A stretch of DNA of 31,572 nt, from the IMG/VR virus record IMGVR_UViG_3300031825_000057, positions 1 through 31,572 of that record; one strand, written 5' to 3'. Shown piece after piece: positions 12,383 to 31,500 of this stretch. Origin of the DNA: a virus. The notes below the pieces were generated by a model. The model made no database searches. It was not told the origin of the DNA and was given only the letters and a program-made list of their open reading frames with translations. A program made the position numbers and the translations under genes. Within the stretch, counting starts at the first letter, position 1, and every line of letters begins with the position of its first letter.

Positions 12383-12766
12383 CTAGCCTGTTGTTCCGTT
12401 GTCTTTGGCTGGTTGAGCAAGCGCATCAAGGAGCCGAATTGCTGTTGGCCACTGGTCCTTGGGCAGGCTCTCCATCAACTCCAGCACCTTTGCGCGAGGA
12501 TCTTCCCCGCCGTGCAGGTCGGCATAAGAGGGCGGGGTGTCCATCCAGCCGCGCTCAAGGCCGAGTTTTTCCTCAATTTCTCGCGCTGTCCCGTCTCCCA
12601 TTTCATAGAGTGTTCCGCGATCACTGCGGATGCTCCGGTTCTGAATTTGCGACAACCGCGGATTCGTTGCGTCCCAGCCAAGCTTTAGGTTTAGCGCGGC
12701 GATAGTTCCATAGCGGCCAATGAGCTCTTTAAGCCTCGCTCGGCGTGTTTCGAACACTGTTTGCAT
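12383..12766 (-). CDS. Putative phage repressor, short form (XRE-type)
   Basis: A 127-residue protein with an N-terminal helix-turn-helix: TRRARLKELIGRYGTIAALN, then a recognition segment with NPRLSQIQNRSIRSD, and GTAREIEEKLGLERGWMDTP as in XRE-family phage repressors. The usual S24 peptidase (LexA-like) domain is absent; the C-terminal ~45 residues are a short helical part (AKVLELMESLPKDQWPTAIR) that may serve dimerisation. Without the self-cleavage domain, SOS induction by autoproteolysis is not expected. It lies next to three operators, with Cro divergent, as in lambda immunity regions. The ATG at 12766 is preferred over upstream in-frame starts because the latter would run into the operators. 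Confidence 0.8.
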   Translation of the reverse strand: MQTVFETRRARLKELIGRYGTIAALNLKLGWDATNPRLSQIQNRSIRSDRGTLYEMGDGTAREIEEKLGLERGWMDTPPSYADLHGGEDPRAKVLELMESLPKDQWPTAIRLLDALAQPAKDNGTTG

Positions 12767-12779
12767 CGCCTTGATTTGA

Positions 12780-12792
12780 TATCCAAGGGGAT
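12780..12792. promoter_or_regulatory. Operator OR3 (degenerate)
   Basis: TATCC-AAG-GGGAT keeps one perfect half-site. Its centre (12786) lies exactly 24 bp from OR2 (12810), which itself is 24 bp from OR1 (12834). It sits just upstream of the repressor gene, where it could control repressor synthesis. Confidence 0.6.
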
Positions 12793-12803
12793 TGATCCAA
12801 AAC

Positions 12804-12816
12804 TGTCCTGGGGATA
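12804..12816. promoter_or_regulatory. Operator OR2
   Basis: TGTCC-TGG-GGATA matches the consensus with one mismatch and abuts the PR -35 box, exactly like OL2 at PL. Confidence 0.8.
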
Positions 12817-12844
12817 TTGACTTTGGATATCCAGGGGATAAGAT
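12817..12844 (+). promoter_or_regulatory. Rightward early promoter PR
   Basis: TTGACT (12817-12822) and TAAGAT (12839-12844) are separated by 16 nt. The predicted start of transcription is 12850-12852, at or one base before the cro start codon. Confidence 0.8.
12828..12840. promoter_or_regulatory. Operator OR1
   Basis: TATCC-AGG-GGATA is a perfect palindrome starting 5 nt after the PR -35 box and overlapping the -10 box by two bases. It is the PR counterpart of OL1. Confidence 0.85.
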
Positions 12845-12851
12845 AGCCGTC

Positions 12852-13205
12852 ATGTTGCTCAATCAATGGCTAAACGGTGCGCGCGGTCGCGGCGCGGCAC
12901 TGGCGCGGCACCTGAACATTCCGCCGTCGATGGTCACGAAGATGGCAGCAGGCGAAAAGCAGGTCCCCCTCGATCACTGCCCCTACATCCAGTCCTTCAC
13001 CGCCGGCGCCGTAACGTGCGAAGAGCTGCGGCCCGACGCCGCGGCGTACTTCGCGCTGATCCGTGCCCAGGCGCAAGCCAAGGACGTGGCCCTGGTCCAG
13101 CCGGGCCTGCGCCTGCCGCCCGGTGTCACCCGCGACCGCCGCGACCCAACGCGCGTCAACCCGTTCCCCGATCTGGACCATCGCGCGCCGGCAGGGGAGC
13201 AATGA
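12852..13205 (+). CDS. Cro-like YdaS-family regulator
   Basis: The 117-residue protein begins MLLNQWLNGARGRGAALARH, then LNIPPSMVTKMAAGEKQVPL: the helix-turn-helix of YdaS-type proteins, which occupy the cro position in many prophages. The C-terminal ~45 residues are Ala/Pro-rich and variable. The ATG at 12852 has no ribosome binding site, and PR transcription should start within a base or two of it, so the mRNA is probably leaderless. Expected role: early repressor of PR and of the lysogenic repressor gene, acting at the TATCC-N3-GGATA operators. Confidence 0.8.
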   Translation: MLLNQWLNGARGRGAALARHLNIPPSMVTKMAAGEKQVPLDHCPYIQSFTAGAVTCEELRPDAAAYFALIRAQAQAKDVALVQPGLRLPPGVTRDRRDPTRVNPFPDLDHRAPAGEQ

Positions 13206-25381: not shown

Positions 25382-26350
25382 ATGCCGCGCTACACACGCA
25401 ATTACGTACTGCTTGCCAAGACCGAGGTCACCTATGGCACCGACCCCGTGCCCACCGGTGCGGCCAACGCCATCCTGGCCAGCAAGCCGCAGATCACGCC
25501 GCTGTCGGCTCAGAACGTCAACCGCGACATCATGCGCGGCTTCATGGGCGGCAGCGAGCAGCTGGTGGGCAACCGCTTCGTCGAGTGCAGCTTCGACGTG
25601 GAGGCGGTTGGCTCCGGTGCCGCGGGCACGGCGCCCGCATGGGGCCCGCTGCTGCTGGCCTGCGGATTCGCCGAAACGGTCACGGCTGCCACCCGCGTGG
25701 ACTACACGCCCGTCTCCAGTGCGTTCAACAGTCTCACGCTCTACTGGTACGACGACGGCATCCTGCACAAGATCAGCGGCGCGCGCGGTGACGTCAAGTT
25801 CAAGTTCACCAGCGGCGGCATTCCGGTGATGTCGTTCAGCGTGAAGGGCTTGTACAGCACGCCTTCGGCCGCGGCCAATGCCACGCCCACGCTCACCGCG
25901 TTCAAGACCCCGCTGGTCGTGGCCGAGGCCAACACCAGCGACCTCACGCTGGGCAGCACGCACAGTGCCGCGGGCGCGCCGGCGCTGGTGGGCGGCACGC
26001 CGTATCCCTCGCTCGGCCTGGAATGGTCGCCGAACAACCAGGTCGAATACGTGCCGCTGCTGGGCGGCGAGAGCATCGAGATCGGGGACCGCGACGCCTC
26101 GTGCAGCTTCCAGCTCGAGCTCACCGCTGCGCAGGAAGCCACGATGCTGGCCTCAGTGACCGCCGCCACCCTGACCAGCGTGGGCATCGTGCACGGTGTG
26201 ACGGCTGGCTACAAAAGCCTGGTGTTCCTGCCTTTCACCCAACTCGTGAACCCGCAGAAAAACGAGCAAGCGGGAAAGCGAATGATTGGCTTCGACGGCC
26301 GGGTCGTCCCCTCAGCGGGAAATGACGAAATGCGCCTTTGCTTTTCTTGA
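25382..26350 (+). CDS. Major tail tube protein
   Basis: A 322-residue protein matching tail tube subunits of siphoviruses (Phage_tail_2-like): YVLLAKTEVTYGTDPVPTGA, then many beta strands (FVECSFDVEAVGSG; GDVKFKFTSGGIPVMSFSVK) and an Ig-like C-terminal part (SLGLEWSPNNQVEYV). It polymerises around the tape measure. CAGGAG lies before the ATG at 25382. The C-terminus (FDGRVVPSAGNDEMRLCFS) ends just before the homing endonuclease gene and appears complete, so the endonuclease inserted without breaking it. Confidence 0.9.
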   Translation: MPRYTRNYVLLAKTEVTYGTDPVPTGAANAILASKPQITPLSAQNVNRDIMRGFMGGSEQLVGNRFVECSFDVEAVGSGAAGTAPAWGPLLLACGFAETVTAATRVDYTPVSSAFNSLTLYWYDDGILHKISGARGDVKFKFTSGGIPVMSFSVKGLYSTPSAAANATPTLTAFKTPLVVAEANTSDLTLGSTHSAAGAPALVGGTPYPSLGLEWSPNNQVEYVPLLGGESIEIGDRDASCSFQLELTAAQEATMLASVTAATLTSVGIVHGVTAGYKSLVFLPFTQLVNPQKNEQAGKRMIGFDGRVVPSAGNDEMRLCFS

Positions 26351-26355
26351 CAGAC

Positions 26356-27120
26356 ATGCAGCAATCGGGCGTCTACGTCATCGAAAACCAGTGTACCCGC
26401 AAGGTGTACGTTGGTTCGGCCTACCGCATGGAGTACCGCCGCCAGCGGCATTTCAAACAATTGACGGAAGGTCGGCATCACTCCAAAAAGTTGCAGCGCT
26501 CGTGGGACAAGCATGGCCCCGGCGTGTTTCGGTTTCGGCCGGTGCTGGTCTGTTCCAAGGCAAACCTGTTGATGTACGAGCAGATCGTCATCGATTGGCA
26601 TGACGCCTATCGGAAAGGCTACAACTGCCTGCCGCGTGCTGGCAGCCGCGCCGGAATGAAGGCCTCCCCTGAGCATCGGGCAAAGATTGCCGAAGGGCTC
26701 CGCAAGTCGGGGCGTATTTGGGGGCCACCTAGCCCGGAAACGCGCACCAAGATCGGCGCAGCCAGCCGGGGCCGCAAGGCCAGCGCCGAGACGCGCAAGA
26801 AGCAGTCCGAGGGCAGGCGCGGCTACCGGCACATGCCCGACGCCATTGAGAACATGCGGGCCGCGCAGAGTAACCGCAAGCCCGTCAGCGACGAAACGCG
26901 CCAGCGCATGTCCGATGCGGCCAAACGGCGTCGCGAGCGGGAGCAGGCAGCCGGCATCGAGCGGCAGTTTTCGCCCGAATTCATGGCCCACGTGGTCCGC
27001 CCCGGGCAGAAGCGGGACCTCGTCATCACGGAAGAGACGCGGCGGCGGAAGGCTGCCGCAGCCCGGAACCGGCGGGACCTGGCGCGCAACGAGAAAGGTC
27101 AGTATGTCGCGCCGCGTTGA
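26356..27120 (+). CDS. GIY-YIG homing endonuclease with NUMOD3 motifs
   Basis: The 254-residue protein has an N-terminal GIY-YIG nuclease (GVYVIENQCTRKVYVGSAYR, with a helix KKLQRSWDKHGPGVFRFRPV) and at least three NUMOD3-type DNA-binding repeats: SPEHRAKIAEGLRKSG, SPETRTKIGAASRGRKAS and SDETRQRMSDAAKRRRE. This is the family that homes into phage genes and introns. Here it is free-standing between tail tube and a promoter. The ATG at 26356 lacks a ribosome binding site; upstream TTG starts are possible. It is basic, as expected. No intron boundaries were found in the neighbouring genes. Confidence 0.9.
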   Translation: MQQSGVYVIENQCTRKVYVGSAYRMEYRRQRHFKQLTEGRHHSKKLQRSWDKHGPGVFRFRPVLVCSKANLLMYEQIVIDWHDAYRKGYNCLPRAGSRAGMKASPEHRAKIAEGLRKSGRIWGPPSPETRTKIGAASRGRKASAETRKKQSEGRRGYRHMPDAIENMRAAQSNRKPVSDETRQRMSDAAKRRREREQAAGIERQFSPEFMAHVVRPGQKRDLVITEETRRRKAAAARNRRDLARNEKGQYVAPR

Positions 27121-27145
27121 CTCGGCCCAGCCGGGCGGATACACT
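27117..27145 (+). promoter_or_regulatory. Strong promoter after the endonuclease gene
   Basis: TTGACT (27117-27122), a 17-nt spacer and TACACT (27140-27145) form a near-consensus sigma-70 promoter. The -35 box contains the endonuclease stop codon. The predicted start is near 27152, where the first leader hairpin begins. Confidence 0.75.
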
Positions 27146-27151
27146 GCCCCT

Positions 27152-27397
27152 GTCACGCCCGTAGGCGTGATCGGGATTGGCGTCCTGATGCACCGCTGCG
27201 ACGAAAGCCGCAGCCTCTCCGCAGGGTCTGCGGCTTTCGGATCTGAGCCTCCAGTTTTTGGCGGCCCGGATGGGAGGCCCGCAAGGGCCTGCCGGTTCGC
27301 GCAAGCGGTGCCCGGTACGCCAACCCGTTCGGGCTGCCGCCCTCGATTGGCGTCTTGGGCGGCGGTTTTCCAAAACCGCACCGCTTGGAGGCCAACC
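27152..27397 (+). ncRNA. Structured leader RNA, candidate regulatory RNA
   Basis: About 245 nt between the promoter and the ATG at 27398. Perfect hairpins: TCACGCC/GGCGTGA (27153-27170), a 12-bp stem CGAAAGCCGCAG/CTGCGGCTTTCG (27202-27213 with 27228-27239), GGCCC-GCAA-GGGCC (27276-27289), CCGTTCGG (27325-27332) and GCGGTTTT/AAAACCGC (27362-27379) right before GGAGG (27387-27391). GGCGGC (27260-27265) and GCCGCC (27337-27342) can close a multi-branch fold. ACGCCAA (27317-27323) can pair with either of two TTGGCGT copies (27177-27183 or 27347-27353). This resembles phage control RNAs such as C4 in organisation; identity is not proven. Confidence 0.65.
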
Positions 27398-27739
27398 ATG
27401 GTCGTCAATTTCCCGCATTCACCCATTGCCATCCGCCCGGATCATGATGCCGAGCAGCTGCGCAGCACCATCACTGACCTGGACGCCTGGTCACAGGGCG
27501 GCTTCGCGCAGATCGCGGCGATCGCCCGGCTGACCTATGCGGCCTTCGAGCTGCCGGAAACGCTGGAACACCCCGACCGCGTCGCGCACGCGCTGGCCAA
27601 CATCGCCAGCATTGCTGACGACATGATGAACTGCATCACCGCCTCGGCCGAGGCGGTGGGCTGCAACTGGCAAGACCCGCGCCAAGCGGCTCGCCACAAT
27701 GCCCGGCGCTCCCAGCGCAGTCAACCCACAGCTCAATAA
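27398..27739 (+). CDS. Accessory protein behind the structured leader (unknown)
   Basis: A 113-residue, mainly helical protein (AEQLRSTITDLDAWSQGGFA, then QIAAIARLTYAAFELPETLE; DDMMNCITASAEAVGCNWQD). Similar short helical proteins occur behind such leaders in prophages and other mobile elements of beta- and gamma-proteobacteria, but no function is known to me. It is not a tail protein by content although it sits among tail genes. The start is set by GGAGG 6 nt upstream. The same frame is open through the leader, so longer annotations are possible but unlikely. Confidence 0.7.
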   Translation: MVVNFPHSPIAIRPDHDAEQLRSTITDLDAWSQGGFAQIAAIARLTYAAFELPETLEHPDRVAHALANIASIADDMMNCITASAEAVGCNWQDPRQAARHNARRSQRSQPTAQ

Positions 27740-27762
27740 CCCCCATACAGGAGATCAAGAAC

Positions 27763-28104
27763 ATGGCATACAAACTGGCGATCGAGGATCTTGTCGGCGT
27801 AAAGATCGAAGGTAAGACCAAGGCGAAGGACGGCAGTGACAAACCGTTCAAGTTCGTGCTCGTTTGCGAACGGTATAGCAACGAGCAGATGAAGGGCTTG
27901 ATGGCGGACAAGGACGAAACCGCCTTTGCCTTCTTCGAAAAGGTCGCGCGCGACTGGCAGGGGCAAAAGCTGGTGGTCGACGAAGAGGGCAATCCGGCCC
28001 CCTTCAACGTCGATGCGCTGCGCTTGCTCTTGAGCATTAGTGGGATGGCCAGCTTGTGCTGGCATTCCTACGTGCAGCAGGTCGCGGCCACCGCAAAAAA
28101 CTAG
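27763..28104 (+). CDS. Tail assembly chaperone (gpG-like, zero frame)
   Basis: The 113-residue protein (MAYKLAIEDLVGVKIEGKTK; FVLVCERYSNEQMKGLMADK; ALRLLLSISGMASLCWHSYV) has the size and place of lambda gpG-type chaperones, directly upstream of the tape measure. GGAG lies before the ATG at 27763. Its last codons GCA-AAA-AAC-TAG form a slippery site right before the stop, so a fraction of ribosomes shift to -1 and make a longer fusion. Confidence 0.85.
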   Translation: MAYKLAIEDLVGVKIEGKTKAKDGSDKPFKFVLVCERYSNEQMKGLMADKDETAFAFFEKVARDWQGQKLVVDEEGNPAPFNVDALRLLLSISGMASLCWHSYVQQVAATAKN

Positions 28105-28133
28105 AGGAGGCGGCGCGTCTCTGGGCGCGCCGC
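28095..28133 (+). promoter_or_regulatory. -1 programmed ribosomal frameshift signal
   Basis: Slippery heptamer A-AAA-AAC at 28095-28101 in the correct phase, followed directly by the zero-frame stop TAG (28102-28104). After 8 nt a perfect 8-bp stem GCGGCGCG/CGCGCCGC (28110-28117 with 28126-28133) forms the stimulatory hairpin. The -1 frame continues into the next coding part. Confidence 0.92.
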
Positions 28134-28502
28134 GAGTTCAAGAACGAAGCGGAGCATGTCAATCACGATGCCGAAGCGACAGACAAACTCGATGAGCAGT
28201 TCGCCTTCTTCGGCATCCGGACCGAGGGTCCGGTGGACGCCCCCGAGCGTTTGCTGCCGTTCTACCTCTTCCCAGAGAACCTGCCGGCCTGGCAACTTTT
28301 CATGGCCGTGCAAACGCAGTGGCGCGGTGGCATGGCGCGCGAGGGCCTTGATTACCCGGGCGTGCACGCCGTCATCGACCAGCGCCGCTCCTGGCGGCTG
28401 CGCCGGCGCCAGCGATTCGCCGAGATCCAGGTCATGGAACGCGCCAGCCTGGATGCATGGGCCGAACAGGCTGCAGATGACAAAGCGGGGAGACGGTCGT
28501 GA
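28101..28502 (+). CDS. Tail assembly chaperone extension (gpT-like, -1 frame)
   Basis: After the shift the -1 frame encodes 133 more residues (LEEAARLWARREFKNEAEHV; ERLLPFYLFPENLPAWQLFM; AIDQRR-like VIDQRRSWRLRRRQRFAEIQ) to give a 246-residue fusion. No good independent start exists near the junction, so this part is made only through frameshifting, as the lambda T domain is. The extension should bind tail tube protein while the G part coats the tape measure. The stop overlaps the tape-measure GTG. Confidence 0.88.
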   Translation, partial: LEEAARLWARREFKNEAEHVNHDAEATDKLDEQFAFFGIRTEGPVDAPERLLPFYLFPENLPAWQLFMAVQTQWRGGMAREGLDYPGVHAVIDQRRSWRLRRRQRFAEIQVMERASLDAWAEQAADDKAGRRS

Positions 28503-31500
28503 GTGAAGCCAAGATCATCATCAGCGCCGAAGACAGGACCGGCGCCGCGCTGAATTCGGTAGCCGCCGGAGTCTCGCGAGTGGCCGGCCTGGTGGAGGCG
28601 CTGGGAGTCACGTTGTCCGTCGGCTACTTCGTGGACCTCATCAGAGGATCGATCGATGCGGCGGACCGCCTTGGCGACCTGAGCAAATCCACCGACATTG
28701 CGGTGGAAGACCTGGCCGGGCTGAAGCTGCTGGCAAAGCAGTCGGGTACCGACCTGGAAGGCCTGGCCAAGGGCATCAATCGGATGTCGGTTGAAATTGG
28801 CAAAAACCCCGAGAAGTTCCGCGCGCTGGGCGTCACCGCAAAGGACAACGCTGGCGCGTTCAGGCAGTTTGCCGACGTCTTCAAGTTGCTGCCGGACGTC
28901 AATCAGCGCAACGCGCTGGCGCAGGCCGTGTTCAACAGGTCCTGGCACGAATTGGCGCCAGCGCTTTCCGAGGGCAGCAAGAAAATCGGCGAGGTCATGG
29001 AGAAGGGCGCTCGGCTGTCGGCCAGCACCAAGGAGCTGACCGCTTCGTCCGACGCCTTCAACGACAAACTGGCCGAGCTCACTGGAACCGGCGGCCTGTT
29101 GAATCGCCAGATCGCGCCGCTGCTGCCGCTGCTCAATGCAATGGCTGATGACCTGATCGACCTGCGCGATAACTCGGCAGATGCCGACGGCCAATTCCAT
29201 GTGCTCGCCGAGACGTTCCGCGCCATGGTTGTTTTCGGCGGAAACGTGGCATTCGCTTTCCGCGGTATTGGTCGGGAGCTGGGCGGGCTCATGGCGCAGG
29301 CCGACACGCTGGGCGTCAGTCTGCCGACCATGATGCAGGGCCCCGCAGCGATGGCTGCAGCAATGATCAAGGCGACAGTCTCGGGCGAGGGCAGCGCCAA
29401 GCGCTTCGCCGCGATCGGCGAGCAGATGCGGGAAGACGCGCGCAAGGACCGCGAAGAGTTCGACAAGTGGGAGCGCAAGATGATGAGTGTGTCGACCGCG
29501 TTGACGGCGGTCGGCGACACCTCGGACGCGCTGTCCCGCAAGCTCAACCGCGACGCCGCGAACGAACACGCACGCCAACAGGCAGCAGCGGCTGCCAAAG
29601 CAGCAGCGTTCCTGGCAGACCAGCAGGCCACCAAGGACGCGCAGAGCGGCTACGACGCCCTCATCAAGCGCATCAACGAAAAAATCGCGGCCGAAAAGCA
29701 AGAGCTGGCGACCAATCGCGAACTGACCGAGTTCGAGAAGTTCGAGGTCAAGACGCTGGCGGAGATGGACGCGACCAAGAAGACGCTGACGGCCACGCAG
29801 AAGGCGGCGATCCTCGGCCACCTGGCAGAAGCCAAGGCCTTGGACCTGCTGACGCTGGCCCGCAAGGAAGATGCGAAGCAGAACATCGCCCTGAACAAGT
29901 TCTTCCTCGATCAAAACGCCGAACTGGCGGCCGACGACAAAGCCCGCACCGACGCGCGCGACCAGGTCAACAAGGCGATCTACGACCAGACCCAGGCGCT
30001 CGCCGACAGCAATGCGATGCTCAAGATGGAAGGCTCGCTGCTCGGGGTCACCGACCGCGAGCGCGAGATCGCGCTGGGCAATTTGAGAATAGATTTGGAG
30101 CTCAGGCGCCAAGAGGAAGAGCTTGGGAAAAACCTGCTGCTGAACGAAGAGCAGCGCGGCATTGCGCGCGCGCGGCTGTACGGCAACGCCGAGACGCAAA
30201 GGGCCATGGTGGCCGAGCGCGCCAGCATCGACGAGTTTCAGCGCGTGTGGGGCTCCATCGACCAGACCGCGCACGACACGTTCGTGAACATCTTCGAGGG
30301 CGGCACCAACGTTTTCAAGAAGCTGGGCCAGACGCTGAAGGCCTCGCTGCTCGATCTGCTTTACCAGATGACGGTCAAGAAGTGGATCTTCCAGATCTAC
30401 GCCAACGTCAGCGGGGGCGCCACCGGCGCCATGGCGGGCCAGGGCGGCATGTTCGGAATGGCCAGCAACGGCTTTTCCCTTTACAACGGGATGTCAAGCG
30501 CCGGCACCATCGGCTCGCAGGTCTTCGGCGGCTCCATGTCGGTGGCCAACGGCGCCGGCACCATGTTCGCCAACGCCGCGGGCACCGGCATCGACGGCCT
30601 GCTGGCCACCAATGGCGCGTATGGCACCGCTGCAGGCAGCGGCGCGGGCGCCGGGGCAGGCGGTGCGGGTGCGGCGGCTGCGCCCTTCGCAGCCATCTTG
30701 TTGCCGCTCTTCGCCGCCTACGCCGATGGCTTTTTCTCCGGCGAAAAACGCGGTGGCGGCCAGTACGGCTACAGCCTCGACGGAACAACCGTGGCCAACG
30801 CCAGGCGCGGCACGCAGCAGGCGGCCAATGGCGTAGGCGCGACGTACCTCGAGGGGCCGGACGGTGGAGACCCGGCCGCAGAAGCCACCAAATTGGTGAT
30901 CAACAGCACGGTGGCCGGCATCAACGATGCACTGCGGTCCTTCGGCAGCCAGGCCACGCTCACCGGTTACCAGGCCGCCTACGAAACCTCGCAGCAAGGC
31001 AAGGGCGGCGTGTTTGCCGGCGGCAGGCTCAGCACGGGTGCGGCGTTCGGCGAGTCCGGCGCGGGCAGCAACGAGCCCGGGAGCAATGGCGCCGACCCCA
31101 GCCGATCGCTGTACGAGATGTGGGGCGCGCAGATCGGCGCGTTCGGAACTACGGGCTTAGACACCAACGGTTCGCCTGAGAAGCTGGCTACCGATGCCGC
31201 GCAGTCCTACATCGAGGCCATCCAGGCGTCTGCCGGCCTGATCCCGCGCATCGTGCGGGAGCAGTACCAGCGTGACTTGAGCGGCAGCACCAGCGGCTAC
31301 ACGTTTGGGGCGACGATGGGCGGCGGCGATGGCGCGGAGAGCGTCACCGACCCGACCGTCACCACCTTCAGGCGCGTGTACGACGACGCCATGAAGGCGT
31401 CTGCGCGCGAGCTCGGCCTGCTGCCAAAGCGGATCCTGGACCTGGTGATCGACGTCGACCCCGAGGCGCTGTCCGCCGAAGCGACGGCGGCGCTCTCGAC

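Follow-up and report, generated by a model that had tools for sequence, protein, structure and literature searches.

Results

The window, the whole stretch of DNA analyzed here, comprises 31,572 nt and spans positions 1 to 31,572 of the viral record IMGVR_UViG_3300031825_000057 (IMG/VR). Within it, a tail tube gene (25382-26350, PF18906) is followed by an endonuclease gene, a leader, and an open reading frame (ORF) of 113 amino acids, after which two tail assembly genes are found (27763-28104, and 28056-28502 with a DUF1799 domain). The leader contains a match to the C4 antisense RNA family (RF01695). C4 RNAs act via two short segments, a' and b' (PMC5320573), and the features below, all on the + strand, are named after these segments and their targets.

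26338-27120, +: GIY-YIG/NUMOD3 homing endonuclease, the other half of the inserted block (domain match; gene-order comparison)
27117-27145, +: sigma-70-type promoter TTGACT-N17-TACACT (sequence; same offset from b1 at other C4 loci)
27152-27171, +: first leader hairpin of 8 bp, the counterpart of the first c4-a1b1 stem (model match, fold)
27177-27183, +: b1 target TTGGCGT, within GGGATTGGCGTCC at 27173-27185 (covaries with b' in 91/92 loci)
27190-27197, +: a1 target GCACCGCT (complementarity to a'; a1b1 duplex energy)
27202-27239, +: leader hairpin of 12 bp, placed where isrK has its terminator hairpin (fold; isrK match below threshold, 23.8 bits)
27254-27344, +: C4 antisense RNA, RF01695, with closing stem 27260-27274/27324-27341 (52.9 bits, cut-off 45)
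27302-27311, +: C4 a' segment CAAGCGGTGC in the P3 loop (match to its own a1 and a2)
27317-27323, +: C4 b' segment ACGCCAA (complementarity to b1 and b2)
27347-27353, +: b2 target TTGGCGT (covaries with b' in 83/84 loci)
27362-27379, +: hairpin in the b2-a2 interval (compensatory changes within the nearest C4 subtype)
27378-27387, +: a2 target GCACCGCTTG, overlapping the Shine-Dalgarno sequence (10-nt match to a'; 2/5000 shuffles)
27387-27391, +: Shine-Dalgarno sequence GGAGG of the controlled gene (sequence)
27398-27739, +: controlled ORF of 113 amino acids, from an unnamed all-helical phage protein family (family searches, AlphaFold model)

The distance from the end of the tail tube match to the start of the chaperone gene was 22-75 nt in 12 related contigs with tail tubes 45-49% identical to that of the window, several of which are close to one another and hence represent fewer than 12 independent cases. 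In the window, the same distance is 1413 nt and is occupied by the endonuclease and the C4 unit. Judged from gene order, the block of endonuclease, C4, and ORF is an insertion after the tail tube gene and ahead of the tail chaperones, in agreement with the first-pass annotation, which had placed an inserted unit among tail genes. The endonuclease is a free-standing GIY-YIG homing endonuclease with a NUMOD3 motif, situated beside the C4 cassette, and was possibly the vehicle of the insertion.

Two other regions of the phage were also observed. The first tail chaperone ORF carries a canonical -1 slippery heptamer, A AAA AAC, right before its TAG stop (28095-28104), and the second chaperone ORF (DUF1799, 28056-28502) lies in the -1 frame relative to the first; the pair likely undergoes programmed frameshifting, as in gpG/gpGT of lambda. 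At 12383-13205, a YdaS (Cro-like) gene on the + strand faces a putative repressor ORF encoded on the minus strand, and this is probably the main immunity region of the phage. The phage having its own YdaS/putative repressor region at ~12.4-13.2 kb, C4 is therefore probably not its main switch.

The Rfam covariance model RF01695 aligned over its full length (1-87), above the gathering cut-off and with an E-value of 1.2e-7 in a search of the whole window. It had been guessed earlier that the RNA might be C4 or a cousin of it, with the remark that a strong Rfam match would make it known; the match identifies C4 itself, and the RNA is thus of an already known kind. The closing stem P1 and the hairpins P2 and P3 were recovered through model alignment, folding, and covariation in P2, and a' and b' were complementary to two targets, one upstream of C4 and one at the ribosome binding site downstream. 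Among C4 loci, the P2 stem was paired in ~96% of cells with covariation at 5/5 pairs, and both stems together were 98% paired. A GG at 27260 opens P1 at the place where, by sequence, RNase P processing to a C4 RNA of ~77 nt is expected.

No second promoter of this kind occurs in 26000-29000, where 0.4 would be expected; the one present lies 28 nt ahead of b1. Promoters of at least 9/12 at 27-30 nt before b1 occurred at 44% of 95 C4 loci, compared to 2% in shuffles. The leader folded with a z of -6.35, and none of 200 dinucleotide shuffles folded as well. Its hairpins comprise 27152-27171, 27202-27239, P2 and P3 of C4, and 27362-27379, the last of which lies just ahead of the ribosome binding site. 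The near-consensus promoter, the hairpin-rich leader, the hairpin before the ribosome binding site, and the 113-residue gene that had been noticed on first reading were therefore all recovered. The hairpin at 27202-27239 is not followed by a U-run, and an intrinsic attenuator is not evident there. The hairpin at 27362-27379 is conserved with compensatory changes in the nearest C4 subtype (L043, L044, L081, L092, and L101), and these changes are its support, as sequence by sequence it is only weakly above shuffles.

Two further Rfam families matched upstream of C4, both below their cut-offs: c4-a1b1 (RF03163) at 27139-27191 with 28.1 bits (cut-off 46.7, E 6e-5), and isrK (RF01394) at 27152-27240 with 23.8 bits (cut-off 50). 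The segment of the leader upstream of C4 would act like c4-a1b1, though it is not filed as a member.

The b' segment ACGCCAA is complementary to both copies of TTGGCGT, b1 and b2, as the first-pass annotation had claimed. The annotation missed a longer match, that of a' to a2, in which CAAGCGGTGC is perfectly complementary to GCACCGCTTG at 10/10 bases, a length reached by 2/5000 shuffles of the downstream stretch; the last base of a2 is the first base of the Shine-Dalgarno sequence (27387). It also missed the pairing of a' with a1 over 8 nt, which 147/5000 shuffles reach. Both targets have b ahead of a, as is required for a' and b' to pair simultaneously. The a1b1 duplex had an energy of -41.5 kcal/mol, and 0/1000 shuffles were as strong, while the energy of the a2b2 duplex alone is unexceptional (63/1000 shuffles as low). 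When the window was scanned for duplexes with a'-b' of C4, a1b1 ranked first on the + strand, but by a small margin; duplex energy alone therefore proves little, and the argument is carried by a comparison across C4 loci. A candidate second trans target at 1396-1437, composed of GCACCGCTTG at 1396 and TTGGCGT at 1431 (35 nt apart), was rejected as chance because its order is reversed and it lies inside a gene on the opposite strand.

For the comparison, viral contigs were scanned with a pattern that fixed only the conserved bases of C4 itself and left out the targets, the first two bases of b', and the sequence of the P3 loop, which identified 119 stretches. Of 92 distinct loci, 91 had a b' whose first two bases were complementary to b1, compared to an average of 32 and at most 44 in 2000 shuffles; for b2, the count was 83 of 84, compared to an average of 27 and at most 40. 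These shuffles leave the relatedness among loci in place, yet at least seven different pairs of b' dinucleotides occur. The covariation that had been named earlier as a check was thus found for both targets. For 84 distinct P3 loops, a' matched the a2 and the a1 of the same locus over 7 nt or more in 60% and 65% of cases, compared to 3.3% and 3.7%, respectively, for the targets of other loci.

The start codon of the 113-aa ORF lies 71 nt past b', typical of other C4 loci (60-75 nt). The genes controlled at many of these loci were antirepressors of the Bro-N, KilA-N, Rha, or P22_AR types. C4 was also found near a primase (L101), near a recombinase/integrase (L043), and ahead of head genes in a phage that encodes a DNA transposition protein (L081).

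The 113-aa protein had no family match in Pfam, PHROG, NCBIfam, or PADLOC, no known antirepressor, Icd, or Kil domain, and no match to a defence system or a solved structure. Single-sequence searches of phages, plasmids, and viral or genome contigs identified no relatives of the protein, and no DNA relative of the C4 unit was found among annotated phages. The first relative was the second gene behind another C4 (L063), and relatives were found in eight contigs in all, exclusively by way of other C4 loci, a motif pattern, and alignment searches. A C4 lies close upstream of the relative in four of the eight (L122, L129, L130, and L063/L132), one of which, L063, had been fetched because of its C4. 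In L131, the RNA before the relative is sRNA-Xcc1, and in L126 and L127 no RNA family matched beside it. The relatives are distant (25-45% identity), and the invariant residues of the family (M1, D29, Q33, I39, A84, E85, G88, and C89) are kept in the ORF of the window. The AlphaFold model is all-helical with four helices (pLDDT 83), and it had no significant fold match.

Other RNAs were seen around members of this protein family. Directly before the relative in L128 (3884-3960) is a sub-threshold match to the antisense RNA of R1162-like plasmids (43.9 bits, cut-off 55), perhaps a third antisense RNA type at a gene of this family. In the prophages of L129 (2333-2401) and L132 (6024-6090), C4 and the 113-aa family have an int-alpA RNA (RF02996) at a distance of ~1-2.5 kb.

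The occurrence of the 113-aa family behind C4 and, once, behind sRNA-Xcc1 led to an analysis of the latter. In L131 (1466-1676), the loop of the third sRNA-Xcc1 hairpin, CTTTGTGT, has two complementary copies of ACACAAAG, one at the Shine-Dalgarno sequence and one upstream. Among 69 distinct loops from viral contigs, matches of at least 7 nt to the own downstream copy occurred in 54% (2.9% across loci) and to the own upstream copy in 62% (4.8% across loci). Most genes behind sRNA-Xcc1 in viral contigs, including the loci from L150 on, look like phage antirepressors, and the six tested carried Bro-N, KilA-N (twice), AntA, P22_AR_N, and Rha domains. In these contigs, sRNA-Xcc1 has the C4 layout, and the results suggest that it works in the same way; they come from a viral-contig sample that favours phage contexts and need not extend to integron copies. 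The RNA has been described as integron-borne and linked to virulence (PMC12189769 and references there), and it is so far catalogued as a trans-acting sRNA. In a literature search that covered few subscription-journal papers, no paper was found that names sRNA-Xcc1 together with "antirepressor".

Discussion

The leader promoter, b1/a1, the C4 fold, b2/a2, and an a2 extending over the Shine-Dalgarno sequence of the 113-aa ORF are all present as read from the sequence. We consider it very likely that the cassette is a complete C4 antisense-RNA unit of a temperate tailed phage, adjoining a homing endonuclease gene, with the tail tube gene on one side and the tail chaperones on the other, and that translation of the small ORF is blocked by the RNA. 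What is new is the location in a tail module and the protein family under control.

The unit resembles the C4 of P1/P7 in its fold, its a' and b' segments, its a1b1 target upstream and a2b2 target at the ribosome binding site, its own promoter, and the small gene behind it. It differs in lying in the tail module, whereas that of P1/P7 lies in the immunity operon, and its gene is not icd/ant. The immI arrangement, in which C4 is followed by icd and antirepressor genes, was not found: the ORF has no antirepressor family match, and the next genes are the tail chaperones. The P3 loop is 16 nt long, compared to 7-11 nt given for a' (PMC5320573). C4-like Group 1 sRNAs of Acinetobacter baumannii share the fold, a presumed RNase P processing, and a variable a' loop (PMC5320573), although they are chromosomal and multicopy. 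The leader shares with c4-a1b1 and with isrK of Salmonella Gifsy-1 its position before C4 and the b1 hairpin GGGATTGGCGTCC, while it scores under both cut-offs and its second hairpin has no U-rich terminator after it. A processed ~80-nt RNA (STnc1160) has been described downstream of IsrK, in a system likened to seqA/CI/seqC of P4 (PMC4825925). The CI RNA of P4 is likewise processed and pairs with two copies of its target, seqA and seqC, that lie on either side of it (PMC4825925), but it acts by transcription termination. An upstream copy, a loop, and a copy adjacent to the Shine-Dalgarno sequence also characterize sRNA-Xcc1 (RF02221), once with the same 113-aa family behind it, although it has another covariance model and forms a separate family in Rfam.

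By analogy with P1/P7 C4 (PMC5320573, PMC8546580, PMC12197685) and with the comparison of Gifsy-1 and P4 (PMC4825925), the leader would be expressed in the lysogen, driven by its own promoter, and cut by RNase P at the GG of 27260, yielding a mature RNA of ~80 nt. This RNA would act in trans, with a' and b' pairing to a2 and b2 such that the ribosome binding site is blocked and the ORF is left untranslated. Pairing with b1/a1 would shut off its own leader, in an attenuation like that of P4 CI, and would also stop this promoter from running into the downstream tail genes in the lysogen. The 113-aa protein may have to stay off in the lysogen, and might be freed when an infecting or induced copy outpaces C4. 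An RNA-based control of an accessory gene, as first proposed for this locus, is supported by the covariation of the targets and the pairing of a' with a2 at the ribosome binding site.

The genes behind P1 C4 and P4 CI encode Icd and Kil, respectively. On this analogy, the 113-aa protein may be a small lytic-phase, host-takeover, or growth-inhibiting factor. As a tentative alternative, to which we give a real but minor share of belief, the same C4 control could act on an antirepressor-like or immunity protein instead. The antirepressors under many C4 loci favour such a product, while the 113-aa protein lacks their domains, its helical model has no fold match, and the phage keeps its own repressor region apart, at ~12.4-13.2 kb.

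The first-pass annotation had read the two pairings of ACGCCAA as mutually exclusive folds. Both pairings are real, and the minimum-free-energy fold of the unprocessed leader does pair a'b' with a1b1 in cis, as would be expected of a cis-acting riboswitch or attenuator, where pairing with 27177 or 27347 in the same transcript sets expression. We regard this as improbable: the same double complementarity occurs throughout the C4 family, of which the P1/P7 member acts in trans as a processed antisense RNA (PMC5320573, PMC8546580), the position of a2 at the Shine-Dalgarno sequence suits antisense blocking, and beyond C4 no ligand-type core was seen. The two pairings are best explained by a processed antisense RNA that has two targets.

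The antisense unit could also be a decayed remnant in a selfish, endonuclease-driven insert, its RNA kept by descent and its ORF free of functional control. A single known copy, the sub-threshold c4-a1b1 match, the neighbouring homing endonuclease, and the distant relatives of the ORF would fit such decay, which is nonetheless very improbable, given that the four target segments, the promoter, the Shine-Dalgarno sequence, and the ORF are all intact, that a' and a2 still match over 10 nt in a lineage-specific loop, and that the ORF retains the family-invariant residues. Ordinary GC-rich intergenic DNA, in which many chance hairpins are expected, is refuted by the Rfam match over the cut-off and the covarying targets, along with the fold z of -6.35, and carries next to no weight.

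The functional C4 unit favoured here is an unusually clear case, as each pairing segment is legible from the sequence and testable by a two-base swap, and it presents C4 as a cassette able to enter an operon of structural genes and to govern a small, uncharacterised protein. Of the findings, the link to sRNA-Xcc1 most deserves to be followed up, and it gives that RNA a concrete, testable function, the repression of the phage antirepressor gene directly downstream. More broadly, C4 is probably one form within a broader class of portable "antisense lock" cassettes, each composed of a leader copy, a three-stem RNA, a Shine-Dalgarno copy, and a gene. In such a class, sRNA-Xcc1 would be another form that silences prophage antirepressors, one small helical protein family would be locked by either RNA, and the cassette of this phage would have moved into the tail operon with a homing endonuclease.
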